Assembly: GCA_947646735.1 (NCBI GenBank)
Contig: CANTFK010000966.1
Coordinates: forward strand, 186,001 to 250,000
Length of the DNA: 64,000 nt
Direction: 5' to 3'
DNA from: Peronospora farinosa
Taxonomy: Eukaryota > Oomycota > Peronosporomycetes > Peronosporales > Peronosporaceae
Below the pieces are notes generated by a model, which worked only from the letters and a program-made list of their open reading frames with translations, was not told the DNA's origin and searched no databases. How positions within the stretch are numbered: the stretch's first letter is position 1; every line of letters begins with the position of its first letter. The position numbers and the translations under genes were made by a program. This document shows, piece after piece, positions 7,547 to 54,005 of this stretch.

Positions 7547-8092
7547 TTGTTCACGGCACATACCATGACGCCTCCTGGAACTGAGTCACAGACTCTACGG
7601 GACCTTATCGAAGGCGACCTTGACGAAGCGGTTGATTACGAAAGTGACACCGTCTTTGTGGGACCCGATGGGTCCCCATTAGCCACCCTCACGGGTGAAG
7701 ATGACACTAGTCATGCACCGAATCCGTTCCCTGAACGTGGTGCTGCAGATGCGCTAACAGCGTTACGTGACCCGCCTGACGTATCATCAACGGTGACGGT
7801 TAACAACCCACTCGACGAGCAGCAACAGAAGAACATCGACCAAGAGGAAAGCGCCAAGCGCCGGACGAAGAATATGGCGGGGCTTCAAGACCATCAACAG
7901 TACAGGTTCAAACCACCTACGGTGGAAGAACGCCTAAAGGAGGCATCTGGGCATTCCCTTTCTAGATAGGCCATTGGGCCTGAGGCCATTTCACCCGAGG
8001 ATGTTGCAACGCGAACGGCCCTTCGACAACGATACCTGGAACCTCATATTACTACGCAAAGCCAAGTATTGGCACGACTTAACAGGCAATTG
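7547..8092 (+). pseudogene. TE1 antisense accessory ORF, 5' part
   Basis: This plus-strand frame is opposite to gag-pol and starts about 110 bp inside the element (first ATG 7565). The first 135 or so residues are acidic (DLIEGDLDEAVDYESDTVFV), then a basic patch (KRRTKN). A single TAG at 7967-7969 interrupts the frame, which then stays open as AIGPEAISPEDVATRT and QVLARLNRQL up to base 8092. There TE2 was inserted; the frame resumes exactly after it, at 26246. I recognise no known domain. The position matches antisense ORFs in TE3, TE5, TE6 and TE7. Confidence 0.7.
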
Positions 8093-8104
8093 TGTGGTGG
8101 AGTG

Positions 8105-8442
8105 TGTAACGGGGCTAGAACGTACCGTCACTAGCTTACACGTGCGCTTGAGGAAGACTCAAGCCCAAGTATTAGGTATTAAGTAAATTTAACTCCGATT
8201 TTTATTTTGGTTTTAATTCGTACTAATTACGAAGATTTTAGTCGTAATAAATACGACAGTGTTCCCGCCTTTCGGGAACCACACAATTTCAGGTTGATTT
8301 ATCATTGGTCCATATTGGGGACTTTAGGCCCAATAATAAACCAATAATAAATTACCAAGCTGTGCCCGCTATTCGGGCCCAGCACCTGCCTACATATGTA
8401 ATTGTTTATTCATATTAATACTATGTAATGTAGCCCATTACA
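8105..8442 (-). repeat. TE3 3' LTR
   Basis: It begins TGTAACGGGGC and ends TAGCCCATTACA; 338 bp. The minus-strand bases beside it (8443-8454) read AGAAGGGGGTGA, a good polypurine tract. The partner is 13989-14326. Confidence 0.93.
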
Positions 8443-8455
8443 TCACCCCCTTCTC

Positions 8456-9753
8456 ATGACAGCGCTCACCAACCGTGAGCGCTCAACTGTCGAAAACCCT
8501 TCGCCTACAAACGAACAAGCAATGTCCGGAGATCCAAAACCCAATCCAGCAGGACGCCCAAGATACATCAGCGGGAATGCATCAACCAACATCATGGCGC
8601 GGCAGCTCATACCTTGGTCGCTGTACGACTTGTCCGGAGCTCACGCTCCGGACTCACTGGACATGATGCGGGACTACTTCCGCCGATTTCGAAAACTGCG
8701 CGGGAAAGGTCTTGATGGAATCGAGCATGAGGCTCTACAACGTTCTTGGTGCGCCTTCATCCAACGTTGGAATCGGATGCCAATCTTGTGACTCGACTCC
8801 ACGCCCAACTCATGACGAATGGCGACGACACATCGCTGAGTGTCCACTCAGTGATCGCGAACGAAGTTGGATTGCGAAGTATGAGCGAAGTCTGGGCGAA
8901 CGGAGAAGCGCAGTTATTCGTGGTGCGCCCGCTGGCGGCACCACTCGCGACAGCGGAGTCGATCTCCGCGGAATCATCAGCGCAGGGCAGCGACACGTTC
9001 GCCTGCCCGTCCAGTTGCGCGATTCTCGCCTCGCAATCGTGATATGTATTCACCGCGACATTCTCGATCACGGCATCGATCTCGTTCGCGACATCGTTTG
9101 CGTTCGCGACATCGTTCTCGTTCCCGACGACGTGGATCTCCTTATCGCTCTCGTTTGTCACGAGAGCGTTCGCGTGCTCGTCTGCCTTGGAATAGTCCGA
9201 CTTTGTGGCTTCATACGACAGAACCACATCTGGAACGTCACGAAGGAGCGAGGAACGTGGTCCCATGTATCCTGCTCGGGAGGGAATCCAAGCCAACGTA
9301 CTCGGTACCTGCGCGCGGATGGAACCGCACGCTTCTCATGAGCCGACTGCAGTAATGGTTGTGGAGGGTCCTCGTGACCCACAATGCGGTCTACAATCCA
9401 GCGCACCTGTCCCTCCGCATCAACAAGCGGAGGAGGGCTCTCGCGGTGGTAGAGCTGGCGTCCTGGTTGCTCAGGACGATGTTGATCAGGCCGTGAATAT
9501 AGCTGCCGATGATCGGCTGGAGGCTGAGGCTGCCAGTGAACGTGCTGCCCAGGCGGAGAAGACTTCGAGTGAGACCCGGTAGTCGAACCGTGAACTTCTC
9601 GAGCGGATAAGGATTCTGGAGCGCCAGATGCTTGGTCAGGTTCAGACGGGATCGAGACCCCGCCCCATGTCATCGGCGCGTCGAGCGCGACGGGAAGGCC
9701 GTTCGACTTACGAACCCCTGAAGTCGGCGTCGGAGCCAAACCGTGAAGCGTAG
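8456..9753 (+). pseudogene. TE3 antisense accessory ORF with RS-rich segment
   Basis: The plus-strand ATG lies 13 bp from the LTR. The first frame (8456-8791) includes EALQRSWCAFIQRWN. The next segment, in another frame, reads CQSCDSTPRPTHDEWRRH and SWIAKYERSLGE. Both match the TE7 antisense ORF at 52830-53170. From 9044 a third frame gives an Arg/Ser-rich stretch (SRSRHRSRSRHRLRSRHRS and on to about 9180). Near 9480-9750 another frame is helical (RLEAEAASERAAQAEK, then LLERIRILERQML). Two or more frameshifts and a TAG at 9580 break it. Roughly 1 kb overlaps the 3' end of pol on the other strand. The RS segment recalls splicing or nuclear RNA-binding proteins, but no RNA-recognition motif is visible. 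Confidence 0.65.
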
Positions 9754-12580
9754 CCGGACGATATTCCTTCAGCCGCCCGACATAGAATGTCGGGTGGAGT
9801 CGCAGTGAAGAGGGGACGTCGAGTGTATAAGCGTCGCCAATTGCCTTCAGAACCTTGAATGGACCGATGAAGCGTGGCGCGAGTTTACTCGCGCCTAGAT
9901 TAGTGACCGCAGAATCCCTTAAACCTTCCGTCGATAATAATACACGGTCACCTTTCTCAAACTTGCTCATGTTCTTTCTTCCATGTTTGTCAGCGTTCTC
10001 CTTCTGTAGGTCTACAGCAGTTTGTAGTGCGTCGCGTACAAACCTGGTGATGGCTTGACGTCTGAGTATAAATTCCGACACGGCCATGTCATCAATTGGT
10101 CGCGCCGACTCAATCGGCGCGTAGTTGGCAGTAAGGGAACGCTTACCCGAAGACGGGTCAATTAATGTCTGCGCAGTCCATCAAGCTAATGGGGACGCCA
10201 CGTCTGATGGCGTCAAAATGGCCGTCTTTGCCTTGGATCGTGTTACTGCATTCGCGCTCAAAATACCGTGAGCTGCACTCGATCCTTGTTTATCACCTTT
10301 ATCCCCCCCCAGAGTGGAGCCACTAGGTGTTGTGGGTCGCCCCACGGCCAGGACAGTAGGAACACGAGGGTGACGAGCCGAATTCACAAAAAATGGCGTC
10401 AACCCTGTTGACGCGTGTACGGCGTTGTTGAGTGCGAACTCAGCGAGTGGTAAAAATGCACTCCAACTTGTAAATGACGTAGCATAACTCCGAAGAACAT
10501 CTTCGAGGACTCGGTTCACGCGCTCGGTCTGCCCATCCGTTTCCGGATGGGCTGCCGTCGACATCAGCAGTTTTGTCCCGAGGAGCTCGAAAAGTGATGT
10601 CCAAAATGCGGACGTAAATCGCGGATCACGGTCCGAAACAATGTTTTCTGGAAGGCCATGATGACGGAACACCGCGTCGATGAAGTGCGCCGCGGTCTCT
10701 GCCGCGGTGACCTTAGCGTGAACAGGCACGAGATGTGTCATCTTGCTGAATCTGTCAACAAAGACCAAGTTGCCCGTTCGAGCTTGGCTATCGGGCGCAA
10801 GCCCGAAGATAAAGTCCATCGAAACTGATCTCCAGGCCTCTGCTGCAATTGGCAACGATCGCAAGTCAGCCTGCGACCATTGAGATGGCTTCACACGCTG
10901 GCATATTTCGCACGTTCGGATCCAGTTGCGTACCCACTTATACATGTGGGGCCAGAAGAAGTCTCGAGACACAGCCGCGAAAGTCTTTTCGCGGCCTAAA
11001 TGGCCGCCAGCAGGAGCATCGTGATACTCGTGAATGATTCTTGCACGCAAATCCATGTCATTGGCAATCACCGCGCGAGGAGCATCGAATTGGTCGATGC
11101 TATACAGAAGCAAATCGCCATCTAAACTGTATCGATGAATATGGTCGCGCTTGGTACGGGATAATGCTCCCAGTGCAGCATCGCTGGGAGCACGCAGATA
11201 CTCGATAATGTCTGCATAATCTGAGTCACCATTGTACGCTGCGACGATCTCATCACATAAACACGGCTCGGGTGTAACCCGAGTTAAGTTCAACGATACA
11301 CACATTGCACATCGCACATCATCGTCCTCGTCATCAGTAGCCTGACGACTCAGAGCAGTCCGAGGATCGTAGTCGGGACGTCGTGACAAGGCGTCAGCGA
11401 GAATATTGGTCTTGCCTGGCTTGTAATGCACGACGAAGTTGTACTCAGAGAAGAATGAGAGCCATCGTGCCATCCGTTGGGACAGGTGTGGGCTCTTTAT
11501 CGCTGTGCGCAGCGCTGCATGATCGGTGTACAAAGCAAACGTACTTTCACCAAGGAGATGCACGCGAAACTTGATGAGTGCATAGCGCATCGCTAATAAC
11601 TCCTTGTCGTGAACCGGATAGTTCTTCTCAGCTGGCTTCATCTGTCGCGACTGATAACTCACGACTCGTTCACGGCCCTCATCATCAAATTGCATGAGGG
11701 CACAACCGATTGCAAAATCACTGGCGTCGCAAACCACGTGGAACGGCTTGGAATCGTCTGGTAGGACCAGGACTGGCGCTGACGCTAGGCTCTTCTTTAC
11801 TGCTTCGAAGGCTGCTTGGTGCTCGGGACGCCACAACCACGTGGCGTCTTTCTTCAAGAGTGACGACAAAGGCTGGATAGAACCAGCATAATCCTTCGTA
11901 TACTTGTGCAAATAATTAGCCAAGCCGAGCCACTGGCGCAACTCCGTAGGGTTCTTGGGCGTGGACCAAGAACAGATGGACGACACCTTCTCTGGATCAG
12001 CTCGAACTCCCGATTTACTCACATAGAAACCTAACACCGGAATCTCCGGTGCACAAAAGACACACTTCTTGAGATTCGCGTACAACTTGTTGTCCCGCAT
12101 AACTTGAAACACTTGCTTCAGGTGTTGAAGGTGAACTTGGAAATCGTTGAGGTTGCCCTCGGCGCGACTATGGACGAAGATATCGTCAAAATAACTTGGG
12201 GCAAAGTTCCGAAGAGGTCTCAACACTTGAGACACCATGCGATTGAAAGTGGCCGGAGCGTTCTTCAACCCTTGTGGCATTACCAGCCACTCCCATAACA
12301 TGCCACTCGGGGTGCTCACCGCGGTGAGTGGGATATCGCTCGGGCGCATCAAAATCTGGTAAAAGCCATCGGTCAAGTCGATGGCACTGAAGATGACACT
12401 ACCTGACATGGAATTCAGCACCATGTCCTTCCTGGGAATTGGCGTTTGCGCAGGAATAGTGGCATCATTCAACTTATTGAACGCATGCACTATCCGCCAG
12501 CCTCCCGTAGCCTTCTTCACGCAGAAGGTTGGACTTATAACGTGCCAACCATGGCATGCCCAGTATGCAATCGAATGCAT
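8757..12580 (-). pseudogene. TE3 pol: RT, RNase H, integrase, chromodomain
   Basis: From 12580 the frame is open to a TGA at 10181-10183, then continues in the same frame to 9158. RT palm motif SYFDDIFVHSR is intact. RNase H shows VVCDASDFAIG, KELLAMRYA and YTDHAALR. Integrase has a zinc-binding N-domain (H..H..CEICQ), then the catalytic core VSMDF, VSDRDPRFTS and TDGQTERVNR with D, D and E. The C-terminus has GPF..DAYTLDVP and a chromodomain (VRWIVDRIVG, YRVRWLGFPPEQDTW). Near 9250 the frame shifts and continues as RSSLLRDVPDVVLSYE towards 8757. The amino end of RT is missing: the frame starts at the sequence SPTFCVKKATGGWR just after the protease fragment. Confidence 0.88.
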
Positions 12581-12962
12581 AATTCATTGCGATCACCAAG
12601 AAATCATCATTACTGCGAAAGCCATCAAACGTATACGGCAACGACACTTCGCGCCGCGATACGCGGTGTGGTTTCCCGTCAGCCAACTTGACGACGACTT
12701 GGCCAGGTCCCTCACGGACCTGAATGCTGGGAGGCAGCATCGAGAAACAAGATTCACGAAAAAAATTATGTGTTGCTCCTGAGTCCAGGAGTGCTCGCAG
12801 AGGTCGCCGGACGCCGGCGACATGTAAACTGACAATAATCAGACGTGAATCACCACTCGTAGTGGTGACGGGGAACCCGGACCTCCGTTCCAACCAGTAG
12901 GGCGCCCTGCACCTACTGGTCCCGACCGTTTTTTGGACGTGCGTCCGGTACAGCACCCTCAT
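12474..12962 (-). pseudogene. TE3 protease, C-terminally truncated
   Basis: The retropepsin motif ALLDSGATHNFFRES is intact and ILGMPWLARY, its usual later landmark, follows. Directly after that the sequence jumps into RT (SPTFCVKK in the neighbouring frame). The linker and RT N-terminus that span about 1.4 kb in TE7 are absent. The ORF overlaps the end of gag by 50 bp in another frame, so a frameshift would be needed for a gag-pro product, or the overlap reflects an indel. Confidence 0.82.
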
Positions 12963-13962: not shown

Positions 13963-13976
13963 AGGAAGGACTACAA

Positions 13977-13986
13977 AGTGCTACCA
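13977..13986 (-). other. TE3 primer-binding site
   Basis: Two bases inside the 5' LTR the minus strand reads TGGTAGCACT. The first eight bases fit the 3' end of eukaryotic initiator tRNA-Met (..TGCTACCA). The identical ten bases occur at the same place in TE1, TE5 and TE7. Confidence 0.7.
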
Positions 13987-13988
13987 GG

Positions 13989-14326
13989 TGTAACGGGGCT
14001 AGAACGTACCGTCACTAGCTTACACGTGCGCTTGAGGAAGACTCAAGCCCAAGTATTAGGTATTAAGTAAATTTAACTCCGATTTTTATTTTGGTTTTAA
14101 TTCGTACTAATTACGAAGATTTTAGTCGTAATAAATACGACAGTGTTCCCGCCTTTCGGGAACCACACAATTTCAGGTTGATTTATCATTGGTCCATATT
14201 GGGGACTTTAGGCCCAATAATAAACCAATAATAAATTACCACGCTGTGCCCGCTATTCGGGCCCAGCACCTGCCTACATATGTAATTGTTTATTCATATT
14301 AATACTATGTAATGTAGCCCATTACA
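13989..14326 (-). repeat. TE3 5' LTR
   Basis: 338 bp, TGTAACGGGG to CCCATTACA, one visible difference from 8105-8442. It is followed by the GAGTG duplication, then by the remainder of the TE2 LTR. Confidence 0.93.
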
Positions 14327-19448: not shown

Positions 19449-19527
19449 TTTTAGCCAGTGTATTCACCTTATCCAAACGGCGGATTTCATGGAAATCTGC
19501 TTCCCGTAATTCGTACAACACCGACGC

Positions 19528-27031: not shown

Positions 27032-28947
27032 AGCATGCCGACATAGAACACAGGATGTGTACGCAATTTGCGCGGCAAGTTAAGCGTATACGCTGTGACT
27101 TTCTTGGCAATGACCGTAAAGGGTCCGATAAAGCGCGGGCGCAACTTCGTCTTAAAGACAGCGGATACTACATTGGTAGGTAGATTTTTAGCATTAAGTA
27201 ATACTTGGTCTCCGACCTCATAATCATTAATACAACTTCTGCCTTTAGCATCTGCATATTCCTTTTTGTTTATCTTGACTATCAGCCATTGCATCTTGCA
27301 TATGTCGTAAGACATTTAGTCGCGTTGCGAAAAACGCATTTACCTGTTTCTTAACAGTATTAGGGATGACATCAGCAAGCCGATCAGCAACCTCTCCCCC
27401 ACCAAGCCTTAAACCACTCGGTGGTAGCATTAACGGAACGCTTGAATGCGTGAGGCCATTCACATAGAACGGAGTGTAGCCGGTAGAGGCGTGCACGGAG
27501 TTATTGAGTGCAAACTCAACTACAGGGAGCATAGAGCTCCATCGCTTAGGCATTTCAGCACAAACGCTGCAGAGGATATCTTCAACAACGCGATTTACGC
27601 GCTCGGTTTGACCATCGGTCTGCGGATGATCCGCTGTGGGCATGTCCAAACGTGTGCCCAGCACCTGGAAGACGGACTTCCAAACTTTACTCGTGAACGA
27701 GGATCACGATCAGAAACATTTGCCACTGGCAAACCATGTTGGCGAAACACACGATCGATAAACAGCTCCGCTGTACCCAAACCATCGATCGAATCTGGCA
27801 CAGCCGCTAAGTAAGCCATTTTGCTCAAACGGTCAACAAAGACCACAATACCTGTATTGCCGTGCGAATCTTTCGGTAGGCCAAACACAAAGTCCATACT
27901 AATGGACTCCCAGCACCCAGTGAGAATAGGCAAAATAGCCAGCGGCGCTGCCGAATGGGGCGAGGGTTTCACCCGTTGACACGTTTCACACGTACTCACA
28001 TATGTGCTCACCCATTTATATAATTTTGGCCACCAATAACTTTGGCATACCGCCCCATAGGTCTTTTCACGACCCAAATGACCACTGATGGAGGTGTCAT
28101 GTATCTCATAGAGGATACGATACTTCAGGTCCTCGTCATGAGAAACCACAGTACGCGGAGGATCCGCCATATCTGTACGATAGTACAACAGCCCCTGATC
28201 GATAGAATATCGATGGAGCCCCGCACGTAATCGTGCCGACAATTTAATGTCCGAGTCTTTAAACTCATCACTACCACGAGCATGTAGCAACGCTATACAG
28301 TGATCATCTTTAGCATACGCCGATCGAATGAGATCACTGATAGAAGACGACAACGTCGTAACATGAGCAAGCTCATAGTCAGGTCTGCGTGACAGCGCAT
28401 CAGCCAAAGCGTTTTGCTTGCCCTGCTTATATTTCACCTCGAAGTTATATTCGGCAAAGAATGACAGCCATCTGGCCATTCTCTGCGAGAGATGCGGCGA
28501 CTGAGTCGCAGTGCGTAACGACGCATGATCGGTATAGATCACAAAAGGCTTTGAGCCCAGCAGATGAACTCTGAATTTGACTAGAGCATACTTCATCGCA
28601 AGTAGCTCTTTGTCATGAACTGGATAGTTCTTTTCTGCAGCTTTCAGCTGGTGAGATTCAAAAGCGACTACACGCTCACGGCCTTCATCATCTGTTTGTA
28701 ACAGAACACTGCCAATGGCAAAACCCGACGCGTCACAGACGACGCTAAACGGTCGATCAGGGTCTGGCAAAGCCAAATTAGGAGCATGAAGAAGGCTAGC
28801 CTTCACCGCTTGAAAAGCATCCTCGTGTTCAGCATGCCAACAACATTCCACATCTTTTTTAGGGAGATTGGATAATGGCCGAGCCATATCAGCGTAATTT
28901 TCGCTGTACTTGTGTAAGTAATTGGCAAGGCCAAGCCATTTACGCAA
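26995..28947 (-). pseudogene. TE1 pol: RNase H and integrase
   Basis: RNase H: VVCDASGFAIGSVLLQ, KELLAMKYALVKFRVHLL and YTDHASLR, and NALADALSRRPDYE. Integrase: HLGREKTYGAVCQSYWWP and CETCQRVK zinc region, SMDFVFGLP, VSDRDPR, then a frameshift near 27660. TDGQTERVNRVVEDIL is read in the next frame, and another shift at about 27300 leads to the C-terminal GPFTVIAKKVTAYTLNLP and HPVFYVGMLKKY. No chromodomain follows. The DDE residues are visible, but the frameshifts destroy the protein. Confidence 0.85.
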
Positions 28948-29726
28948 GTCCTTCTGAGACTGTGGAACAGGCTAGTCGACTATGGCTTTGACCTTGGCGG
29001 GATCCGCTCGTAGGCCCCGCTTCCCAATGAAGCACCCTAGAAAGGGAATTTCTTCGGCCCCGAAGATGCACTTAGATGCATTAGCATATAGTGTATTAGT
29101 GCGCATGCACTCGAGCACAGCTCGTAAATGAACAATATGATTCTAAATATCTGACCGCCCATGTTCAGCTCGACTATGGACAAAAATGTCATTAAAGTAC
29201 GTCTGTGCATAATTTCGATGGGGTCGAAACAAATGCGTCACCAAACGGTTAAACGTAGCCGGAGCATTAGATAGCCCCTGGGGCATCACCAACTACTCCC
29301 AGAGCATACCGCTCGGAGTACTAACATCAGTAAGCGGAATATCGCTAGCTCGCATGAGCAATTGGTAATAACCATCGACTAAGTCGAGCGCACTGTACAT
29401 GGTACAACCGACCATATTGTTCTGAAGAACATCCTTTCTAGGTATTGGCATCTGTGCAGGTAAAGTGGCTGCATTGAGCTTATTATAAGCATGAACGATA
29501 CGCCATTTACCATTCGGTTTTTTAACACAGAAAGTGGGTGTCGAGTGCGGAGATTTACTCTCGCGCACCATGCCCGCCGCGTGCTTTGCACGAAAGAACT
29601 CGTACACTGTTCTTTGGGTAAAGACCACTGCCGTGTTACGCAGAATTTGGTTCCAGGAACCAAGTCAATTTCATGACGTACACCCCTATCAGGTGGTAGA
29701 ACAGACGGTGGATCGTGACACATCAC
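28948..29726 (-). pseudogene. TE1 pol: reverse transcriptase
   Basis: RT motifs in order: VRHEIDLVPGTKFCVTRQW, SPHSTPTFCVKKPNGKWR, HAYNKLNAATLPAQMPIPR, SALDLVDGYYQLLMR, TPSGMLWE. The Trp after that is a TAG stop at 29293-29295. The active site reads TYFNDIFVHSRAE at about 29195, with Asn for the first catalytic Asp. A second TAG replaces Trp near 28974 (expected in WPVPQ). One frameshift lies near 29630. The inactivating base changes seen are G to A on the coding strand. Confidence 0.85.
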
Positions 29727-32798: not shown

Positions 32799-32880
32799 CT
32801 ATCAATGACAACATTGGATTGAAGACGTAAGTACACCCGGGAGTGCCACGTAGGTCCTATTATTTGCCTTAAATTAATTG

Positions 32881-33654: not shown

Positions 33655-34254
33655 TGTAGATGGGCACTTCTACGAAGTTGCCTCGTGCTACTATCACACA
33701 CCTTCAGCACAAGCGAGGAAGCGGTTAGACCGTCTTACCTTCGCGTGCGAGGGTGGTTAGGAGGTTGTTCGACTGCTTAAGCAGTCGTACCACCAGTTGC
33801 CTCTCGCTTAAGAGAGAGCGCACGAACTTCTAAGACAAGAAGGCACCGACGTCACGTAGAAGCCTCTCGGCTTCTCGTGCGTGGTGCTTCGGTGTTTAGC
33901 AAATTCAAGACTGAGCTATATTTAATGAATTATAGTTAAACATAAACTTTACCTACTGATTGGCTATATATGTATATAGATCGGATACGCGACTCTTTAG
34001 AAGTGTATCCTGTCGCATGAGCTTAAATCTAGATTTAAGATCGCAACTGACGTCCTTCTGAGACGTCGTGATGTCTAGCTTCAACTAGCGCCATCCCTTC
34101 CCATGTAAATCCATAAATGAATATCACATTCACGAGGGTGGATTACGTTTGTGTATCGCACCCAAGTGACAGGTCAAAAGTAATCATGGATACTTTTAGA
34201 CCAAACATTAAGTATATCAATTAATGTTTACGTGTAACTAGATGCCCTGTTACA
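33655..34254 (-). repeat. TE5 3' LTR
   Basis: 600 bp, TGTAGATGGG to CCCTGTTACA, nearly identical to 42803-43401; differences include GATGGG/GACGGG near the start and ATCAATTA/ATTACTTT near the end. On the minus strand the adjoining AACGGGGGATGG (34255-34266) is the polypurine tract. Confidence 0.93.
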
Positions 34255-34408
34255 CCATCCCCCGTTTTAGAACGATTTTTACAATTTGTAAAACATCGCC
34301 TAGGAGACAGAGAGACTTGCGAGCCGTTATAAACGCGCCGCTTTAGTCTACTCAATTCTCGTTCCACCGAAACGTGGCAAGGCTGATGGGTCTCCTGCAA
34401 AGGCACCC

Positions 34409-35624
34409 ATGCAGTCCAGCACTAAGCGCACGCGCCGCGATTTTTCGCAGCCGTCGCAAAGTGCTTTAGGCACTGAGGTGGATCTTCCATCTCACTATAA
34501 TGTGGATGAAGATCCATCTCTCATTGTAGATTACAATGAGACTACGCCATTGCCATCACCCCAAAGTGGCGATGAACAAAGCGCATTGATGGGACATATG
34601 TCCCCACCATTTGAGGCACCCGTCCTTGAGGGAGCATCTATGCTTCCTGCAAGCGAAGGTAAAGCCTCGTCGCCTGCGCCTACGAGCGCAGCGACTAAGA
34701 CTGAGCACGCTAATTCGAAAGGAGTAGTCGCGACTCATTCAGATGTGACTCCTCAAGCTGATGTCTTGACAATCCATAATAGAGAGTCAGACTCAGGTGA
34801 GTGTGAGCTTAAAGCTCCACCAAGTACACCGTCGGCCTCACTAACCGCCGTCGCGAGGGCGGCTACGTGAGTGGTGGCTTGCCACCAATGCCACCTCCAT
34901 CTGAGTGGATGAACTCGGATGGGTCTAGCGCAGCGCTTTTGCAGCGTGCCACTATAGACGCTCATAGATTCTATAGCGTCGATCCCTTGTGGATAAGCAG
35001 GGCAAAGCACTTGGTCGTGCTTTCCCAATTCCAGTCGTGCTGCGTTCTAACGAAACATCCGACGAATATGAAGCTGAACTTCGGCGCCGTGTAATGTTGC
35101 ATGTAGATGCAACGAAACAACGGTCGCAGCGAATCAGCTTCGCCATGAAGCATGCGCATGGAATCTTGGGTGGTAAGCGACCCCCAAATAATTCTCGCCA
35201 AACTTCTTCTGCTGGTCCATCCGGACCTAGCAGAAAGACGACAGCTGGTGCTGCTTCACATAAGCAGCCATCAGCCCAGGCACGTCGACGCGCAAAGCGT
35301 CCACAGGCTCCCACCAGTCAAAGCTCGTTTGGTAACCCTTCCACTGCACAAGGTTTTGGAGCTTTTGCTTCACAAACCGGTGGGCCAACAGCCTTTCAAC
35401 AAGGAAGCGCGTATTCCCTTACGCGTCCACCAACACAGGTGGCGCCCAAAAAGAGCGGCGATTACGCCCAACTACTCTCATCTGCTTATCCTGCTGCCAT
35501 TCAGTCGCAGTCTAAGATCGCTGCGCTGACGAAAGAGGTGGCGGATCTTTCGAGTCAAGTCTCGCGACTGACTTTGGATCTGCGCGATGTGAGGGCGAGA
35601 GACCGTCAGGGGTTGACCGCCTGA
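34409..35624 (+). pseudogene. TE5 antisense accessory ORF
   Basis: Plus-strand gene starting about 155 bp inside the element, opposite to gag-pol. The frame 34409-34870 begins MQSSTKRTRRDFSQPS and is acidic and Ser/Pro-rich. It shifts twice (near 34868 and 34985) and continues LPPMPPPSEWMNSDG, then ALGRAFPIPVVLRSNETS and EYEAELRRRVMLHV. A basic, Gln/Ala-rich stretch follows (QARRRAKRPQAPTSQS), and a C-terminal coiled coil (KIAALTKEVADLSSQV and on) ends at 35624. The last 147 bp overlap the end of the pol frame on the other strand. Without the shifts it would be about 400 residues. No known domain; the layout resembles the TE1 counterpart. Confidence 0.68.
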
Positions 35625-37242
35625 AAGCCCATTTGGACATACACGAGCGACTGGTGATGAGGTACCCGCGTCCAACGCGGAGTCCTCTTCGATCATCGAT
35701 TCCTCTGTCGTCGGTCTCGTATACGGGAAGTCGTTCACCTTCCTTGTCGCCTGATCGGCAATGACGCTCGACTTACAGTTGACGTCATCATCGGTTTCGT
35801 TAGACTGATGTGGATATGTGATCAATTCTGGATCCACATACCGTTTTAGAAGACCCACGTGAAATACGTAGTGCGTCTTCATATACGGTGGGAGAGTGAG
35901 CCTATAATTTAGGCATCCAACTTCTTCAACCACTGTAAAGGGTTCAATGAATCGGGGCAATAGCTTAGTTGTACCACCAGGTAGTACAGAAATTGCATGT
36001 TTAGGTAGGGTAGCAGTACTTGATAGCACTTTGTCCCCCACACTAAAGTGTTCATTGTTTTTGCGACCATGCTGGTCTGCATATTGTTTTTGTCTGTCCT
36101 GTACGCTTGCCATCGCGTCACGGACTTTACGTGTGATGGCTAATCGCTCATCCACAAAGCGCTGAGCTTCGCTCACGCTTTTAGCATCCAGCTCGCCTAT
36201 GACGCCTCCAAGAGGTCGTTCATGGGTCGACGCTGTTGGTAACACTATAGTGTCATCATCAAGGAGCACTGGCATTTCTTGCCGTGCCTTCTCTGTGACA
36301 CCTATAGGTGTCGTGACCACTGCTAAATTAGCAGTGTCACTAGGGCAACCTTGGCCCTTTTTGGCATTCGTACCGAGCGAAGTGAGGGTCCCTCCCCTAC
36401 TAAGACTCGGGCTGCGTACAAACAAGACTGGCATTCGAGGATGACGCAGTCCGTTAATGTAAAACGGTGTTTCACCCGTACTGGCGTGAACACTGTTATT
36501 AATAGCGAACTCCACGAATGGCAATTGCTTGCTCCATTCTTTGAGAGTCGCTACTGTACGCAATACATCCGCCACGACTCGATTGGCTCGTTCCGTTTGG
36601 CCATCGGTCTGGGGATGATCAGCGGTGGACATGTGGAGCTTGCTTCACAGCAACTCAAACACATGTCGGCAAAAACCTGACGTAAAACGCGGATTCCGAT
36701 CCGATACTATTGACTCAGGCATCCCGTGTAATAGGTACACATGAGACATAAACAAGAGGGCAGCCTCTTTTCCTGAGATCTTGGTGCTACATGGTGCCAA
36801 ATACACCATCTTGCTCAGTCTTTCTACAAAGACGACGAGCCCCGTCCTGCCCTTATGGTCAGGCGGTAAGCCAAACATGAAGTCCAAACTGACCGACCTC
36901 CAACAATCCGTTGGAATCGGCAGTGGCTTCAGTGGCGCACTGTTCGAAGATGCAGGCTTAATGCGCTGACACTCTTTGCAAGAGCGAATGTAGTTGGCCA
37001 CCCACCGATATAGGTGGGGCCACCAAAATTCCTCTGACACTCGTAAGAATGTCTTTTCACGGCCCAGATGCCCACTAGATGGCGCATCATGGCACTCGTG
37101 AAGCATCATCAGCTTGAGATCTGTGTCATGAGGGACATAGATTCTCAAGGGATCACAGGGTGACAGTTGATGCCATAACAGGCCATCACTGTAACTAAAG
37201 CAATTTAGATTCGCTTTGAGGTGCGACGAAAGGGTAACCTTT
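35478..37242 (-). pseudogene. TE5 pol: integrase and C-terminus
   Basis: Integrase: HLGREKTFLRVSEEFWWP and CKECQRIK (zinc domain), SLDFMFGLPPDHKGRTG, VSDRNPRFTSGF, then a single TGA at 36645-36647. The frame continues LHMSTADHPQTDGQTERANR, completing the D,D,E core. A long insert-like stretch with TTPIGVTEKARQEM precedes ADQHGRKNNEHFSVGDKVL and GPFT-like FIEPFTVVEEVG, HYVFHVGLLKRY. No chromodomain is seen. The frame ends at 35478, overlapping the antisense ORF. The start of this part is cut by the solo LTR at 37243. Confidence 0.85.
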
Positions 37243-38850
37243 TGTGGTGGAGCGAGGTTCACAAAATTTCTGATGTGATCCCGACTCTTCACTGGCGCCC
37301 AGACAACCGACTATCGGAGGGGGTACTCCGTTTCCGTGTATAGCAATTCCTTCCTCAACTTGTGTACCCGTCGGTAGGGCGGGCAGCACTCTTCTCGGTG
37401 GACTTGAGTTGATGCTGAACTTGGCCGTGGTTGAGATTGGTTGGGGTTCGATCGCGCGGAAATCTTCACGCGATCGAGGGGTTACTTGGGCACTCTATAT
37501 GAGTCGCCCTAATCTCTCTTGAGATCGCCTTGTCCAAAAATGTAGATACTTGATCCACTTGATCCACTTGACCTTCTGACCACTTGAGCCGTCTCGCGAT
37601 CTTGTATCTTGCCTTTACGTGATACTGCGTCCAATCGCAGGCGAAGTTTGTTTGCGAGAGGTCTTGTAATACCTGGCCAAACAATCCAGGAATATTATTT
37701 GTAGGTACTGGTGACAGAAGCTCTCAATCGTCGGGGGCCAAAAATGTCCCACCCGGAAGAGAAGTATGCGTGCGTGCTTAGAAGTAAAAGAAACTCTGTT
37801 TAATGTTAACCAATCAAATACTTAAAACCTATGATCTTGCCTATCGGTAGCCCAGGATCTACTGCCGCGTGTCGCCTTCTTGGAAATAAATCAGACTTGC
37901 TATGTGGTCCACTTCAAATACTGTGTCGATCCGGTTTTGTCGATCCAGTTTTGTCGATCCGGTTTTGTCGATCCAGTTTTATCGATCCGGTTTTGTCGAT
38001 CCTGTTTTGTCGATCCTGTTGTATATATTCTATTTTGTCGATCCTGTTTTGTCGATCCAGTTTTGTCGATCCAGTTCTATCGATCCGGATTTGTCGATCC
38101 GGTTTCTGGTTCGAGGTTTCGTATCGATCTGTAACTGGTTACGCTTTGCGATCTACTTTCTGGATCGAGGGTTCGATCCGATCCTCCTGGATCGCGACTG
38201 TGGTGTGTGATCCACACCCAATAATCTTTCGATCCATATTCTTCTGTGTTCTTGACACCGTTACCCCCTCTTCCAACCATCTCGCATGCCTTATCGACCA
38301 ATAGGAGCGTTGGATTGTGGATCGACGATATATCTTTGATCGATCCCTTTCAAATTATCCGATCGCTTTACCACAGTTACAATGCCGATCATGATTGCCT
38401 TTGTCGATCGTGATCGCCTTTGTAGATCGTCATTGTACTTGTCGATCGCGATCGTACTTGTCGATCAGATCGCATTTGTCGATCGTGATCGTATTTTTTA
38501 ATCATGATCGCATTTATTTTTATCTGATCGCAAATGTATCCATGTTGATCTGATCGCAAATGTATCCATGTTGATCTGACCGAAATAATATCCATGGCGA
38601 TTGCCTCAATCATGATCGAGCATAAAAGGTCGACATTTAGTCGTAATCTTCACTTGGGCTGTAATATTCCTCGACGATCGATTGATCGACCTGATAAAAT
38701 CAGATCGATCCCGATATAATCAATAAATTCTGACGATCACTTGATTGATCAAATAAACCTGATCGCGCCCATAGTATAACCAAATGTCATCCCATATTAT
38801 CGATCTATTCCATGTGTGTGATTTAATATATATCAATCAACTTCACTACA
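37243..38850 (-). repeat. Solo LTR of the TE2/TE6 superfamily inside TE5 pol
   Basis: 1608 bp beginning TGTGGTGGAG and ending TTCACTACA, flanked by CTTT (37239-37242 and 38851-38854). The first 250 bp match the conserved block of the TE2 LTRs (ACTGGCGCCC, GTGTACCCGTCGGTAGGGCG). The array part is a different repeat: 14-bp units of TTTTGTCGATCCGG at 37925-38110, then CGATC-rich sequence. The flanking pol frame joins exactly across it (..FAKRK and VTLSSHL). It has lost its internal region by LTR-LTR recombination. Confidence 0.92.
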
Positions 38851-42743: not shown

Positions 42744-42790
42744 CTAAACCACACGAACGCTCAGAGAGACGGGTCGTGGGAAGGACTACT

Positions 42791-42800: not shown

Positions 42801-42802
42801 AG

Positions 42803-47690: not shown

Positions 47691-47703
47691 TCCCCTTCGC
47701 GCT
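47691..47703 (-). other. TE6 polypurine tract
   Basis: Minus strand CGAAGGGGACAGC directly against the 3' LTR. Confidence 0.65.
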
Positions 47704-47899
47704 GGTCTTCCGAACTGCGGCAAGCTGCCATTTTGAATTAGCAGTAAGTGGCCCTGTGTCGGCTGGATGGGTGCGCTCACCAACTCACAAGTCTTATATT
47801 CGCCAGTAACCTCTCGTAAAATTTTCAACGTGTCACAAGCACCTGACCTGGTTGGCCTTTTACCGCACTTCCTGGACCTGATCCTGACGAGGTCGCTCC

Positions 47900-49698
47900 G
47901 ACCTTAGACCTTATTGGGGAGCCAACAATTATCTGGAGGTCGCTCAAGCTTGGAAAGTTTTACGTGTCGCGGTGGAACGGGCCCAGTCCATGGAGTCCCT
48001 CGCTGAGGAACACAGGGTCCTCCAACGGACCTACCAGATGGAACATCGCCGGACCGCGAAATTACAGCGTCGCGTAGACGACATCACGAAATTCGAGGTG
48101 ACCCAAGCGCCCCGGATACAGTCTTGGGTCCGATATCTGGTCCACGAGCATGAAGTAGACCAGTTGACTATCGCCGAGTACCGGGACACACTTGCCCAAC
48201 GGGTGGACAACTCCCAGGAAGTGGAAGAGTCCCGATTTCAGATCGAATACTGAAAGGACCAGTACAACGAGGCTGTCGAAAAATTTTCGGCTGAGATTCG
48301 GTCGCTGAAGTCCAAGTTGGACGCACTTCACAGTTCCCAAGCATTGTCGAGACAAGTGTCGGTACTCCAGAGAGAGATGGCCAACTACAAGATTCGCGTA
48401 AGAACCCTCCTCCGGGAACGAAGCCAGCTGCAGAAACAGCTGACGGTGGCTCGAGGTACTGCGGCGAAATCGACTCCGTCCACGACCAGAGCCCGGAGCT
48501 ACAGAACGATGAAAAGATCATGTTCGCCTTCAGCCAAGGTTCGGTCCCCTCCTAAGTCGAAGAAGCGGAAAGTCACCCATCCTCCGGGGTCATCTGAGAC
48601 AGAGGATAGCAGTAGTGACGACCCGTTGTTCGCCGCAATAGCCAGATCGCGTGCTTCCAGTCGTCGCTCCGGCCCCGTATCCTCTACTGCAAAATTAGGC
48701 CCAAAGGTCATAGACCTGTCAAACAAGACCAAGTCTAAGACTTCCACTTGATCCTCGAAGTCTCCTTCACCTCAGACCTCCCGCGTAGCTTCTCGTTCGT
48801 CAAAGAAAAAGAAGGCTCGTACAGCGTACTCAGACGAGTTCTTAAAAATGTTTGGTCCGGACTATGAGACTGAGAGCGACGAGTCTAGCAACGCCAAGAG
48901 GAAGCCACCGGCCAAAGGTCCAGCTAGAAAGGGTAATACTTCGGCGCCTAAAGGTCCCCGCCGCAAGGGTCCCAGCAGCAACGGTCTTGCATCAACATCC
49001 AAGGGTCCCAGTAACAAGGATCCTGCACCAACATTCGAGGGTCCCAGCTACAAAGATCCCGCCCGTAAGGGTCCTCCAAACCATAACATCCAGGGATCCT
49101 CCATTCCTGGTTTTGCGAACCCAGCACGTTCGCCGTGGAAGACGTTTCCCCTTGGTCGATTTCCCAGGTAGGGGCCCTCGTTATCACCCAGCTGACGCCA
49201 GAGGATCTTTGGTCCAAGGTATCGCTTCCACTGTCTTGGGTGGGTGCTTCTGATGACCAGAAGTCCCGAAGCCCCCCAGTCTGTAGTAAAGGCCTCATGA
49301 AGGACTCTCAACTTCAACTTTTGATGGATTCGCGTCCTTGGGACCTGGGGGTCGTGACCGTAAACCCTATTTCTCTCTCGGTTTCCGGATGGTTTAGCGA
49401 CCTCGTGAAGCTCCATGATACTTACGTCGACGCGTCACGCCAGAGTCTATGGGAAGACCGACACCGACTTCCTCTCTCTGCCGAACTCCGTACGAAGAGC
49501 CGATACGCCTCTCGTCTTTTCAATGCGAGAAAGAAATGGCGGGCCAAGGCTGCGATGGAAGTGTTTGAAAAGGTCTTGGAAGGGATGAAAGCCTACCACT
49601 GTGACCTGGACGTTCTTCTTGACCCATACTTCCAACCCATGATTCCGACCCGTCAGCGGACCGTTTGGTATCCAATTTTCACGAAGGAGGATCCATAG
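47900..49698 (+). pseudogene. TE6 antisense accessory ORF: coiled coil, NLS, repeats
   Basis: Plus-strand gene opposite to gag-pol. One frame is open from about 47933 (NYLEVAQAWKVLRVAVERAQ) to 49171 except for TGA at 48251 and 48749. It begins with a long coiled coil (to about 48470: HRVLQRTYQMEHRRTAKLQR, IRSLKSKLDALHS, LLRERSQLQKQLTVAR). Then comes an NLS-like PKSKKRKV (48551-48574) followed by an acidic Ser patch, then Lys/Pro/Gly repeats of 10-11 residues (KGPSNKDPAPTFEGPSYKDP). After TAG 49169 a frameshift leads to a C-terminal domain (VSGWFSDLVKLHDTYVDA, YASRLFNARKKWRAKAAMEV, LDPYFQPMIPTRQRTVWYP) ending at 49698. About 580 residues in all. It looks like a nuclear, self-associating protein; the function is unknown. 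The 3' side is separated from pol by about 600 bp without clear features. Confidence 0.72.
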
Positions 49699-50321
49699 TT
49701 GTTTTTTTTAAGCGTTGCGGACAGTAGACGACACTGCACCCTGGCGCGTGCTTTATCGTAAAAACTTTTAGGAGCACCCGCCTTTCAGATCCCTCGTCTC
49801 TCTGGCAAATTTTGCACGAGCAGCAATGCGCAGAATAATTAATCAGTCAGCTTTCCGCGTATCCGTATTAGTCGTTCCACTCCAATGCTTCTCCCCGTAA
49901 CTTCACACTCTTTTTATTTAATCCTGTACCCTCGGATCCCTGGTACCCTGGGCTCTGGCACCTTGGGTCTGGTACCCTGGAGCCCTGTACCTTCGAAACC
50001 CTGTACCCTTAGCATTCAGGGTCTCACAATACTTCGCAGTTTCTTCTGTGCTGCCGCACTCTCGAACATGTAACTTGATCCATTTGTAAATGTATAACAA
50101 ATACCGCCTCCTTCTTGCATCATCTTGGACTTCCCAAGATGAACTCTCCCCACTACTCCTCATGGATATGCATTGCCTCGAACCGGTTCCGAGTAGCCTG
50201 CCTGCGCTCATAGTCCCTAATCAATCCTCCCCAATCGAGGTTGTTGTGAAATGTTCCCAAGTTGAAGCCGTTGGAACATCTCACGTCCGTTTACCGATGC
50301 CGAGTGCAATAAAGAGAGAAT
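49699..50321. other. TE6 spacer between antisense ORF and pol
   Basis: No supported gene. It contains short repeated GGTACCCTGG/CCTGTACCCT phrases at 49925-50010. At its right end it has decayed pol C-terminal sequence, where the TE2 protein continues beyond its chromodomain but this copy has stops. Confidence 0.5.
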
Positions 50322-52789
50322 TCAACAGAGGTCCACCTCATCTATCCATAACGGGTCAGGATATCCTTTCCACTGTACCAGGTATTCACACTGGATCCGT
50401 CCGTACCGAGTTTTCCTTCCCATACGTCTGTCTAGAATTTTTTTCACTTCGTATTCGTCATCTTTCAATTCCGTAACCCAACTGTCTTCTGGCAATAGGG
50501 CCTCATCAAAATACACCGCTCCGCTTCGTCTACCACCATTAACGTATCCGGTCTATCAGGGTATTGCCGGAACAGCTTCAACTTAGACATGTGTACCAAC
50601 AGGTATAAACAGTAGTCTATCCTAATGATGCCTAAGCGAACGGCATAGCACCCACTAGTTTCCCCGATCGGAACGGACCACGCCATAGGTGTGCCAGCTT
50701 CGAGCATAGCCCTCCTTGACCCGGTCCAAGTATAACCATACTTGGGAATCCACCTCAATATGACCATCAACCACCTCCTCATTGTGGTACTGGGCTCGAC
50801 TTTCCATCGCCGATCGTAATAATTCGTTGGTCTGTTCTCTCGCTCGGCGATACTGACGTTGCATGCTATATCGCCATCGACGTGGTTCACATTCTCGCCG
50901 GTGGTGCTGCTCAGCGCTATGGTGGCTTCTAGAGTACTTCGGCATTCCAGCTGCGTACCAAGAAGAATGGCGTCTTCTTTCGGATCCGGACCTGTGCCGT
51001 ATTCAACGCGAAAGTGAGCCTTTCTGCATAGGCATCCCATTCCTTCTGATCCACCTCTGACACATACATTTTGATGGACCGTGTGATAGTCTGTACCATT
51101 CTCTCTGCTGTGCCATTGGCCTGTGATCGATACGCCATAGTAGCCCACTGTTTCTGCCCAATTATGCGATTGAAGGCGCGAAAGAAATCTGACATGAAAC
51201 TAGGTTCTCTCGTCGTGACGGATCGCCTCACTGGCCCCAAACCGACGGAACACGCACTCTTCGTATCCTTCTGCCACGGTTTGGGCCGACCTCGACGAGC
51301 TAGCCTTAGCAATCACATATCCCGTCAACAGGTCCACCCAAATCAACAGCTCCGTATTACCCTTGAATGACTTGGGCAAAGATGGGATATGGTCCATCGC
51401 GATAACTTGGAACGGGTAGGTAGCTTGAATGTTTCCTGGGGTCCTCCCTCGTAAGGTGGGGCCACCTTTGCCAGTCTTGCAGTCTACGCAAGTGCCAACA
51501 TAGCGCTGAACACTCCGGAATAAGCCTTTCCAATAGAAATGTTTCCGGATACGTTGGTATGTACGGCCAATTCCCTGGTGTCCTCCTTCTAGACTCGTAT
51601 GGTAGTGGTGTAGAAAGTCTTGTTGTAGACTTTCGGGTATAACTAGCCGAATCAACCCATCACGGCCCTTGTCGGTTGCTCCTTGGTAAGGGCAGTACAA
51701 AAGAAGTTCGTCATCATCCAAAGCGTAGTTCATCTCAATCTTTCCACACGTAGATGCCACCTCTGCCGATAAACCACTCCAATTACCCCGTAGGTAAATC
51801 TTCAAATCACGTATCCACATCTCTTCATCTTGGGCTGCTGCAATTCGTTCGATCCTTACCCGTTGCACTACTTCCTCTTTCACGGCTTCCGTCGGCATTC
51901 TGGATAGGGCCCGGGACCTCGTAACAGCTGTAACTCGCAATGCAGGGTTCTGGTCCTTGGGTATTAAAAGCTCAGGTAGACGGTTGATTGCTTCAAGGTC
52001 CTTGAACTCTTCTTCCGGCACTATATCGACACCCTGTTGCTGGTGCAAAGCCACGTTAGCAAGTCGGTCTGCACTTTGGTTCCATTCGCGCTTCATGTGT
52101 AGAAACTCATGAACGGGCCAGTACCTGAGTTTTTCCAGGGCCTTCGCCCGTCGTACTGTCAGTCCCTGCGCCTTACACTTGATTTCTCCTCGCATCTGTA
52201 GCACGACCAGGTTAGAATCTCCACATACCACCAGACGTATACGCTCCAGGTTCTCCAGTAGAAGGAAGCATAACAATAGGCCTTCATACTCTGCCTCAAT
52301 TACTGTCGCTTCAGTCAAATATCGGGAAGCGGCGGCGACCACCGTCCATCCCGGGAGTTGCCACACAATAGCACTGCAGGCCCCTCCCCCACGCTTAACT
52401 CGTGCAGACCCATCGAAACTGATCACGTACGAGACCTCCTCGGGTTCGACTGTATGAGGAACCACCGTGATAGCTTGGCGCGGGTGTTTCCTAGAGGCGA
52501 TCGAGTACAGGATGCAGTCCACGTTTTCGCGAGTAGTTATGCTGGCTTCCAATGTCCCCAGTATTTCATCCCCGCCCCGCTTACACTTGACCACTTCAAG
52601 CGTCCATTGAGACAGCAGTGCAGCCCAATTTCCAAGGCGTCCCTGACGACCTGGTGACCGGACTAACCACGCTAATGTGGAATGTCGAGTTAAGACCTTG
52701 ATTGGACGGGTAACCAGCAATGTATAGCAAAGGTCGAGTAACTGCAACAACTCTAGCACTTCGTTGTCCACCAAGCCAAAATTAATCTC
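50322..52789 (-). pseudogene. TE6 pol: RNase H pair, integrase, chromodomain
   Basis: From 52789 down: the C-terminal part of the degenerate gypsy RNase H (NEINFGLVDNEVLELLQLL, VLTRHSTLAWLVRS, with Arg where the Asp of YTDH belongs). The second RNase H follows: SFDGSARVKRGGGACSAIVW, TVIEAEYEGLL, CGDSNLVVLQMRGEI, NQSADRLANVAL. Integrase: GGHQGIGRTYQRIRKHFYW, CVDCKTGKG, AMDHIPSLPKSFKGNTE, EAIRHDE. A frameshift near 51210 is followed by PSFMSDFFRAFNRIIGQ, NGTAERMVQTITRS. A further shift near 50950, then a chromodomain-like YEVKKILDRRMGRKTRYG, YLVQWKGYPDPLWIDEVDLC and a stop. The long first frame (52789-51200) is intact. Confidence 0.87.
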
Positions 52790-52791
52790 AT

Positions 52792-54005
52792 TTGAGAGGC
52801 AAGGCGACGAACAACGCATATACCGACGATGCGTTGCAGAGGTCTTGGTGTGCCTTCATCAGGAGCTGGAACGCGAGCCGACGTGAAGGAACGTCCTTCA
52901 CGTCCTGGTTAGACGGTCGCGAGGGAACGCGTGATAGACACGCTATTGGCGACCTGCGCCGGCGCATCTGTCGTATGACTTGTGACGAATATCACCTTTG
53001 TTACGTCCACATTCGTGAGGGATGTCCAACGTGCAACGTGGGCAGGTCGCGACCGGTCCGGCAGGAATGGGACGACTTGGTGTGTACGCGAGGCATGCCC
53101 GATCATATTCGTCCATGGATTGCCCGTTATAAGAGAAGCCTTTCGCAGCTCCAGGTGTCCGAGCTACGGCGAGTGAGATTGCATCCTTAAGATCGCCTTG
53201 GGCGTTCACGTAGCCGAGGTCGTCAACCGTATAATCTGTACGCTCCCGAGCCTCGTAATAGGTCTCGGTCTCGGAGTCGCTCGGGAGGTCGTCGCGGTTT
53301 CGTTGCTCGCGAGCATTACGGCTCGCGAGATCGGGGATGGAACCGTCAGCGTCGGTCGCGATCACCGTCTTTCTACGGGGCTCGTAGTCCTCGTCACGTC
53401 CGGGACATCTTGGGACAGCGTACTCGATGGCTCTCATGTATCGTCCGCCGGGGAATATCCCAACCAGCGAACCCTGTAATGTTTCTCGACATGCTTCTTC
53501 ATGGGCGCCGAGTTATTACTCGGCGCCTGGGACTTGTAATCCTCGTGATCGACAATCCGGTCGACAATCCAGCGTCGCGCACCCGATGCATCGACTAATG
53601 GAGGAGGAGCATCACGATGGAAGGCCTCTGGCGATGAGCGCCGATTCTCGTAATCGGGCGCCTGTACAGTCGAATGATGAGCTGCGCCTACTCCGCGCTG
53701 AAGCCGAGGAATCGAAGAATGCCCTACTTGATTCTCGCGAGATGGCTGAGAGAGCTCAAGATCGTGCGGATGCTGCGACTGAGGCTGCTGAGCGGACCCG
53801 AAGTGAGCAGCTGGTACTGGTTGAGCGCCTACGTCAACTTGAGACGACTGCGTTCGGAGGGCCCCAGCAGATCGAGTCTGCACGCGTTCGGGCAGGACTT
53901 GGTCCCAGTCGTCGTCAACGTCGTCGTCAAGGGATGTCGGATTTCGAGCCGGCACAGAAGAGCGGGGAATATTCGAAGGGAGATCCGCCGGCAGGTAAGC
54001 CTTGA
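52792..54005 (+). pseudogene. TE7 antisense accessory ORF with RS-rich domain
   Basis: The 5' end is lost at the junction. The frame reads DALQRSWCAFIRSWNASRRE, RRICRMTCDEYHLCYVHIRE, CPTCNVGRSRPVRQEWDD and PWIARYKRSLSQLQ, matching the TE3 antisense ORF. It is interrupted by a single TAA at 53188-53190. The same frame goes on with RSRSRGRQPYN, then RNRSRSRSRSGGRRG, RDRGWNRQRRSRSPSFYGAR (about 53200-53400), an Arg/Ser-rich domain like those of SR proteins. A different frame then gives a coiled coil (DELRLLRAEAEESKNALLDS, AERAQDRADAATEAAERT, VLVERLRQLE) and ends at 54005. The stretch 53410-53600 lies opposite the pol chromodomain. A Cys/His set (C..C..H..C..H..CPTC) may bind zinc. Confidence 0.7.

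Follow-up and report, generated by a model that had tools for sequence, protein, structure and literature searches.

Antisense genes under purifying selection between pol and the 3′ long terminal repeat of Gypsy retrotransposons in the oomycete Peronospora farinosa

What is a gene doing on the opposite strand of a retrotransposon? The window analysed here, 64,000 nucleotides (nt) of Peronospora farinosa DNA (assembly GCA_947646735.1, contig CANTFK010000966.1, positions 186,001 to 250,000), raises this question in five Gypsy elements, TE1, TE3, TE5, TE6 and TE7, whose gag-pol all lies on the minus strand. A previous reading of the letters alone (in the following called the sequence-only reading) had proposed that each element carries a plus-strand gene between the end of pol and the 3′ long terminal repeat (LTR). 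We confirmed a plus-strand coding stretch, directed against gag-pol, at all five places between the pol end and the side of the 3′ LTR. Its extents were set by mapping intact copies from elsewhere in the genome onto the window; the TE5 gene extends past the end proposed for it, to 35800. The antisense genes are listed below, with the protein types A to C as described further on.

7565..8099, plus strand: TE1 antisense gene, first part (type A), 90.5% identical to the intact copy L061
26240..26996, plus strand: TE1 antisense gene, second part, severed by the nested TE2 and TE3; it holds the coiled-coil stretch, and stops break the frame
8456..9750, plus strand: TE3 antisense gene (type B), with ~140 nt missing inside and split over frames
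34364..35800, plus strand: TE5 antisense gene (type A), 91% identical to L037, broken by stops or frame changes
47758..49829, plus strand: TE6 antisense gene (type C), 82% identical to L064, broken by stops or frame changes
52793..54002, plus strand: TE7 antisense gene (type B), 97% identical to L004, with the first ~190 nt missing and a frame change

All five window copies lack one continuous open frame, and intact copies were sought in the same assembly (46.85 Mb, 274 contigs). Searches with gene pieces listed 135 to 151 matches each, and 91 for the full TE3-type gene. Representative intact frames encode 427 amino acids in the TE1 type (L061, L062), 493 in the TE3 type (L067, L068), 481 in the TE5 type (L037 and others) and 468 in the TE7 type (L004 and others), while two TE6 subfamilies (L063–L066) have open frames of 699–798 codons. 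Counted by eye, a stop-free 443-codon frame occurs in 30 of the 150 TE1-type matches listed, and residues 1–492/493 are spanned without a stop in 16 of the 91 TE3-type matches listed. Thirty loci each were fetched for TE7 and TE5, both sets including the broken window copy; at least 400 open codons were found in 10 and 16 of them, respectively, and 11 of the 16 TE5 loci have the usual MPPKRG start. Many frames of 600–798 codons are among the 135 TE6 matches listed. In the zone of intact copies that is free of pol, each of the other five frames contains 4 to 30 stops, except in the short TE7 zone, where two minus frames have only 1 and 0; the TE3 zone used for these counts (359 codons) is that of L067, where pol is cut short, and pol reaches further in L068. 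The antisense start codon directly follows the complement of the polypurine stretch in TE3-type copies and lies ~105–115 nt from the LTR edge in the TE1, TE5 and TE7 types.

Two observations on individual copies may be added. The LTRs of TE3 (window 8105–14326) are nearly identical (337/338), yet ~140 nt are gone from its antisense gene, which indicates either a recent move with help in trans or the loss of the piece after insertion. On contig C235, six matches lie ~1461 nt apart and form a tandem array (L081, G000:C235:6000-10500), whose unit comprises most of the TE5 antisense gene plus the pol end (window 34549–36028); shifted copies are >99% identical within the 4.5 kb fetched.

Selection on the antisense frame was expressed as the ratio of nonsynonymous to synonymous proportions of differences (pN/pS, Nei-Gojobori) among intact copies, with codon bootstrap intervals given in parentheses. 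The copies were picked for open frames; left out were the 5 of the 16 TE5 loci (at least 400 open codons) without the MPPKRG start and 1 of the 10 fetched TE1 loci (L075), in which the usual start does not open a frame of 300 codons, and the TE1 row L080 was shortened to 327 codons. In the pol-free zones, the antisense frame gave 0.29 (0.21–0.41) for TE1 (n = 9) and 0.41 (0.29–0.64) for TE5 (n = 11), which is the purifying selection on the plus strand that the sequence-only reading had set as a test. The pol-free zone of TE7 (n = 10) gave 0.47 (0.24–1.15) and is alone too short to decide, with one minus frame open there. When the pol frame was extended into these zones, the ratios were 1.75 for TE1, 1.21 for TE5 and 1.42 for TE7. 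Between subfamilies, the antisense frame gave 0.49 (0.37–0.64) at a pS of 0.77 for the first 150 aligned codons of TE3 versus TE7, whose final portion faces the unconstrained tail of pol in TE7, and 0.50 (0.45–0.56) at a pS of 0.67 for TE6a versus TE6b. Young copies with unselected mutations push such ratios towards 1. The minus frame -c has a similarly low ratio, since its third positions face those of the antisense gene; as stops occur in all minus frames of the TE1 and TE5 zones, it is not a rival gene.

Where the two genes lie opposite each other, they share constraint in ways that differ among families. The antisense frame is constrained opposite the TE7 pol tail beyond the chromodomain, with 0.39 (0.24–0.67) versus 1.45 (0.80–3.29) for the pol frame. 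The respective antisense and pol values are 0.66 (0.49–0.87) and 0.82 (0.65–1.10) in the other TE7 overlap, 0.53 (0.30–0.97) and 0.89 (0.50–1.79) in the TE5 overlap, and 0.87 (0.62–1.25 and 0.63–1.24 in two calculations) and 0.60 (0.41–0.89) in the TE1 overlap. Because the pol-free zones are open and constrained and the stretch opposite the TE7 pol tail is constrained as well, the antisense strand carries a genuine coding gene under purifying selection. Its overlap with pol is an example of natural overprinting that allows selection to be measured on each of the two strands.

In TE1, TE3, TE5 and TE7, the antisense gene overlaps the 3′ end of pol tail to tail. In the TE6 type, pol ends in a chromodomain-like stretch, and a gap of ~270–330 nt separates it from the end of the convergent antisense gene. 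In all four overlapping families, with one copy considered from each, the antisense frame meets pol in one common phase, the coiled-coil stretch faces the low-complexity pol linker that joins the integrase SH3-like domain to the chromodomain, and the antisense frame stops 10 to 25 codons before it would reach the HPxFYV-like motif of the SH3-like domain; in L067, with pol cut short, the chromodomain motif was not located. If phases were free, four families would share one by chance in 1 of 27 cases. That two protein types with no recognizable similarity share this geometry suggests a single ancestral overlap, or limits on where a gene of this kind can be placed.

The host elements carry the hallmarks of Ty3/Gypsy retrotransposons. 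TE1, TE3 and TE5 each have an LTR pair, a target duplication, gag and the order reverse transcriptase (RT)–RNase H–integrase; within the window, TE6 and TE7 are truncated, and TE7 lacks a 3′ LTR. The following features were delineated.

6818..7454, minus strand: TE1 3′ LTR (5′ LTR at 32159–32798; 623/637 aligned positions identical)
6813–6817 and 32799–32803: TE1 target duplication CTATC, 5 bp
27598..28971, minus strand: TE1 pol piece (RNase H, integrase zinc domain), in the sense of the element
8105..8442, minus strand: TE3 3′ LTR (5′ LTR at 13989–14326; 337/338 aligned positions identical)
8100–8104 and 14327–14331: TE3 target duplication GAGTG, 5 bp
8443..8455, minus strand: TE3 polypurine-tract-like stretch, directly adjoined by the antisense start codon on the other strand
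9161..12583, minus strand: TE3 pol (RT, RNase H, integrase, SH3-like domain), with its 3′ part opposite the antisense gene
33655..34254, minus strand: TE5 3′ LTR (5′ LTR at 42803–43401; 591/599 aligned positions identical)
33650–33654 and 43402–43406: TE5 target duplication TCGCA, 5 bp
35481..37310, minus strand: TE5 pol 3′ part (integrase, SH3-like domain), in two frames
50156..52794, minus strand: TE6 pol part (second RNase H, RVT_3; integrase zinc domain), cut off at the TE7 junction, without overlap with the antisense gene
53437..55101, minus strand: TE7 pol 3′ part (integrase core, SH3-like), opposite the antisense gene
59686..60004, minus strand: TE7 5′ LTR

The pol of TE3 shares 69–92% identity with TE7 over most of TE7 pol and 58% at its end, 56–57% with TE1 and 52–64% with TE5, but only 24–27% with TE2 and TE6. 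The Chromo match lies below the Pfam cut-off of 25.1 bits in the window copies of TE3 (19.8 bits) and TE7 (21.4 bits) and above it in the intact copies L061 (47.2 bits), L037 (33.4 bits), L004 (45.9 bits) and L068 (31.3 bits). RVT_3, the second RNase H, was found in TE6, TE2 and L069. TE2 has a chromodomain-like pol end as well, with a match of 23.7 bits that is again below the cut-off, and the pol end of the TE6 type resembles it. TE2 (window 14327–26243) is a dual-RNase-H, Chronos-like element, whose LTRs of ~2 kb contain long arrays of 17/35/53-nt repeats, and stretches of TE6 pol are 67–69% identical to it in DNA. The 5′ region of TE7 holds a 33/66-nt repeat array with long open frames on both strands (window 57505–57999). 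Outside the elements, an open frame on the minus strand (window 2714–3817) encodes a cyclin N-terminal domain and is probably a host gene beside the nest of retrotransposons.

By sequence similarity, the antisense proteins fall into three types, A (TE1 and TE5), B (TE3 and TE7) and C (TE6). In profile comparisons, TE3 joins TE7 (probability 100, 366 columns) and TE6a joins TE6b. TE1 joins TE5 once relatives from other species are added (probability 95.8, E 7.7e-9), a match not seen without them; for their pol-free parts alone the score is 44.9, whereas 30 column shuffles did not exceed 18.6 and the reversed profile scored 16.6. It is this match that makes three types rather than four. Comparison of A with B, A with C and B with C found no similarity at the shallow depth of these alignments. 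The sequence-only reading had thus been right that TE3 and TE7 share sequence and that TE1, TE5 and TE6 do not obviously match these two, and had overlooked the link between TE1 and TE5. The types track the pol relationships, TE3 going with TE7 and TE1 with TE5.

Protein databases were queried with the TE7, TE5 and TE1 genes, and TE3 and TE6 (type C) were searched within this genome only. The TE7 query yielded 13 relatives, including Peronospora destructor and four Phytophthora species, the TE5 query 14 (Peronospora effusa, P. farinosa and unnamed sequences) and the TE1 query 63 (P. effusa, Peronospora matthiolae, P. destructor, two Hyaloperonospora species, Phytophthora sojae and unnamed sequences). 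The nearest named relatives of the TE1 and TE5 genes are from P. effusa (94 and 96% identity) and P. farinosa (96%). Identities reach up to 94–96% in P. effusa and are 41–59% in P. destructor, 39–52% in P. matthiolae, 34–53% in Hyaloperonospora and 29–64% in Phytophthora fragariae, rubi, capsici, megakarya and sojae, many of the matches covering part of the protein length only. The names given to relatives are all “hypothetical”, “unnamed” or “uncharacterized”, and a precomputed Pfam domain is absent from all 90. When types A and B were scanned against viral contigs, there was no match, and the relatives in other species are known from their proteins alone, not from their antisense position. 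The expected recurrence in several lineages is borne out by at least two deep Gypsy lineages and, for types A and B, by protein relatives in other oomycete genera.

The predicted build of the proteins differs by type. In the type A model (P0029, 25 sequences, mean pLDDT, the predicted local distance difference test, of 62), the N-terminus is disordered and, in TE1, acidic; it is followed by a predicted folded core at ~130–250 (block means 78–93), a disordered arm and a long predicted C-terminal helix at 369–414 (pLDDT ~88). The TE5 protein opens with a basic block followed by an acidic part, and the TE1 protein contains no cysteine at all. In the type B model (P0002, 13 sequences, mean pLDDT 54), a helical cysteine-bearing part at 50–180 (block means 51–90) and a disordered arm rich in serine and arginine (SR) are predicted, as is a long helix at 348–395 (pLDDT ~57–85). 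In type C, the N-terminal half contains coiled-coil-like stretches, the middle is basic and rich in repeats, and the C-terminal part is well conserved. An acidic or helical N-terminus, a basic middle and usually a C-terminal coil had been supposed throughout; this roughly describes TE1 and TE5 and, with a cysteine-bearing helical N-terminus, an SR-rich middle and a coil, also TE3 and TE7, but not TE6, whose coil lies in the N-terminal half. Basic clusters (KRTR, KRQR, KKRK, RKKRR) occur in types A and C. None of the six proteins has a transmembrane segment, the maximum 19-residue hydropathy being 0.07–1.22; this and the antisense orientation rule out an envelope-like gene.

Searches for known domains and folds were uninformative. 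In a Pfam scan of the six intact genes nothing exceeded its cut-off, the best match being Alanine_zipper on the TE3 coil (E 3.4e-4, below cut-off); a TE6 fragment gave a sub-threshold bZIP_1 match of 15.9 bits (cut-off 27.6). A sequence search of the PDB with TE6, the only gene tried, found no match. Structure searches with types A and B gave Foldseek E-values of at best 0.21 and 2.2, hence no convincing fold, which does not imply that the folds are novel, and VIA Z-scores of at best 4.5 and 5.5, without an informative match.

Genes at this site have precedents. Plant Gypsy elements carry antisense open reading frames (ORFs) between pol and the 3′ LTR, as the sequence-only reading had stated: gene23 of maize Grande and those of rice RIRE2 and Silene Retand, together termed aORF-3R (PMC7264820, PMC11963269). 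For Grande, the antisense protein is described as nuclear, with an antisense promoter upstream of its gene and a suggested regulatory role (PMC7264820, PMC11963269). The oomycete genes resemble this class in that they are open frames at the same site and in the same orientation, present in many conserved copies and without clear homologs outside; they differ in their oomycete host and in that four families overlap pol via chromodomain and linker and stop beside the integrase SH3-like domain. A Pfam scan of the six intact genes with an E limit of 10, in which HMMER filters limit weak matches, did not list the plant domain TRP28 (PF04195) for any of them. The gene brtn of the Botrytis element Boty is likewise described as an additional gene in antisense orientation, carried by a Gypsy element in a filamentous pathogen of plants, but it is fungal and a single gene family. 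In human T-cell leukemia virus (HTLV), antisense transcripts are described as starting from the 3′ LTR, and HBZ of HTLV-1 and APH-2 of HTLV-2 are antisense genes at the 3′ end of a retroelement with a coiled coil, as predicted for the oomycete proteins. The latter are nevertheless unrelated to HBZ, the full-length scan found no bZIP domain in them, and their LTR-driven transcript is putative. Within oomycetes, the Ty3/Gypsy group Chronos has a second RNase H and a chromodomain (PMC5348765); TE2 and TE6 resemble it by RVT_3 and a chromodomain-like pol end (sub-cut-off match in TE2, similarity to TE2 in TE6). The word “antisense” is absent from the main text on Chronos, whose relevant passages describe ORF1 and ORF2 only (PMC5348765). 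Among the literature matches listed, judged by title or the start of the abstract and with most subscription journals outside coverage, there was no report of antisense genes in oomycete retrotransposons.

What might drive and use such a gene? Type B LTRs each contain two forward and two reverse CCAAT boxes, within a palindrome-like stretch common to TE3 and TE7, a count reached by 6/500 and 8/500 first-order shuffles. In the TE3 LTR, two ATTGG and two CCAAT boxes lie within 8304–8345, 115–152 nt before the antisense ATG. In Phytophthora infestans, CCAAT boxes are described as occurring equally in both orientations and mostly at most 150 nt from the start codon (PMC3599244). The type B stretch is a plausible two-way promoter. 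The antisense RNA would then start inside the 3′ LTR, and its protein would enter the nucleus, self-associate via its coiled coil and tune the sense transcription of its own element or the fate of the integrated copy, as HBZ does for HTLV-1. This role is suggested by position and build, which resemble those of the antisense regulators of LTR elements, the plant proteins and HBZ. That the selected gene, likely transcribed from the 3′ LTR, makes a predicted nuclear, self-associating regulator of element expression or integration has in our view about an even chance of being correct.

Several points weigh against this regulator. CCAAT boxes are not clearly enriched in the LTR stretches of TE1, TE5 and TE6, and the 16-nt oomycete initiator pattern was found before none of six starts, its shorter core once, in TE6b. 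The frames of the TE6 type run upstream of the first ATG with conserved residues, and no ATG precedes this conserved upstream stretch. TE2, a relative of TE6, is absent from the 135 genome matches to the TE6 gene, so not every relative depends on the gene. Within the TE1 overlap, the antisense frame seems to be free of constraint (0.87). Type B lacks a basic cluster of the kinds scanned, its cysteine cluster and SR arm are equally compatible with RNA binding, and no DNA-binding or bZIP domain was found in the full-length Pfam scan of the intact genes. Finally, antisense transcription, nuclear location, self-association and regulation are inferred. As a separate observation by eye, splice-site-like GTAAGT and, later, CAG motifs lie near TE6-type genes (window 47500–47810; upstream of L063 and L066); an intron in antisense direction, if true, would be direct evidence of antisense RNA.

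Other readings of the genes have to be weighed. The protein could be a second nucleic-acid-binding or assembly factor, similar to nucleocapsid or Rev, that packages, exports or chaperones the element RNA rather than regulating transcription. The conserved cysteine cluster and SR-rich arm of type B, the predicted coiled coils of types A and B, which could serve self-assembly, and the lack of a membrane segment agree with such a factor, which we consider possible but rather doubtful: no zinc-knuckle or RNA-binding family appeared above cut-off, the TE1 protein is free of cysteine, and the gag of TE3 already has its own zinc knuckle. An activity against host defence, for instance against small-RNA silencing of retrotransposons, would suit the three unrelated protein types as products of an arms race, and most small RNAs in P. 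infestans datasets are described as stemming from LTR retrotransposons (PMC3522703). We regard this as unlikely, since the pN/pS values indicate purifying and not positive selection and since no known suppressor family or fold turned up, although these tests are weak.

Two further explanations were considered. If the genes were mere passengers, picked up from the host or left over from other mobile elements, this would explain why three types with no recognizable similarity occupy one site; however, the protein types follow the pol relationships, purifying selection extends across subfamilies, and the relatives have neither a functional name nor a Pfam domain, which makes passengers very improbable. 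It is extremely unlikely that the frames are a by-product of pol constraint and codon usage, with no antisense protein. Codon bias could favour the one phase in the four overlapping families, and in the TE1 overlap pol is constrained (0.60) and the antisense frame not clearly so, but large parts of the gene are outside pol and are open and constrained there, the constrained frame opposite the TE7 pol tail is the antisense one (0.39 vs 1.45), and TE6-type genes do not overlap pol. The pol-free zones and the TE7 tail already contradict this explanation, so that sense-strand constraint, which the sequence-only reading had named as a possible full account, is ruled out as such.

Returning to the antisense regulator, we tentatively consider a wider possibility, which we would not call probable. 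Oomycete Gypsy elements may possess their own HBZ-like, LTR-driven antisense regulator that has arisen at least twice, both in the lineage that comprises types A and B and in the one with two RNases H. In the former, one ancestral gene would have overprinted the flexible pol linker and chromodomain, whereby the geometry became fixed, and its N-terminal half would have diverged until unrecognizable or been swapped. If this is true, such a regulator would be, together with those of plants, Botrytis and HTLV, a repeatedly invented part of LTR elements. If expressed, the antisense gene adds a further unnamed protein, annotated as hypothetical, to the abundant retrotransposons of oomycetes, and the repeated occurrence of antisense genes at this one position, in oomycetes as well as in plants, a fungus and retroviruses, would suggest that LTR elements generally need a product of the opposite strand.

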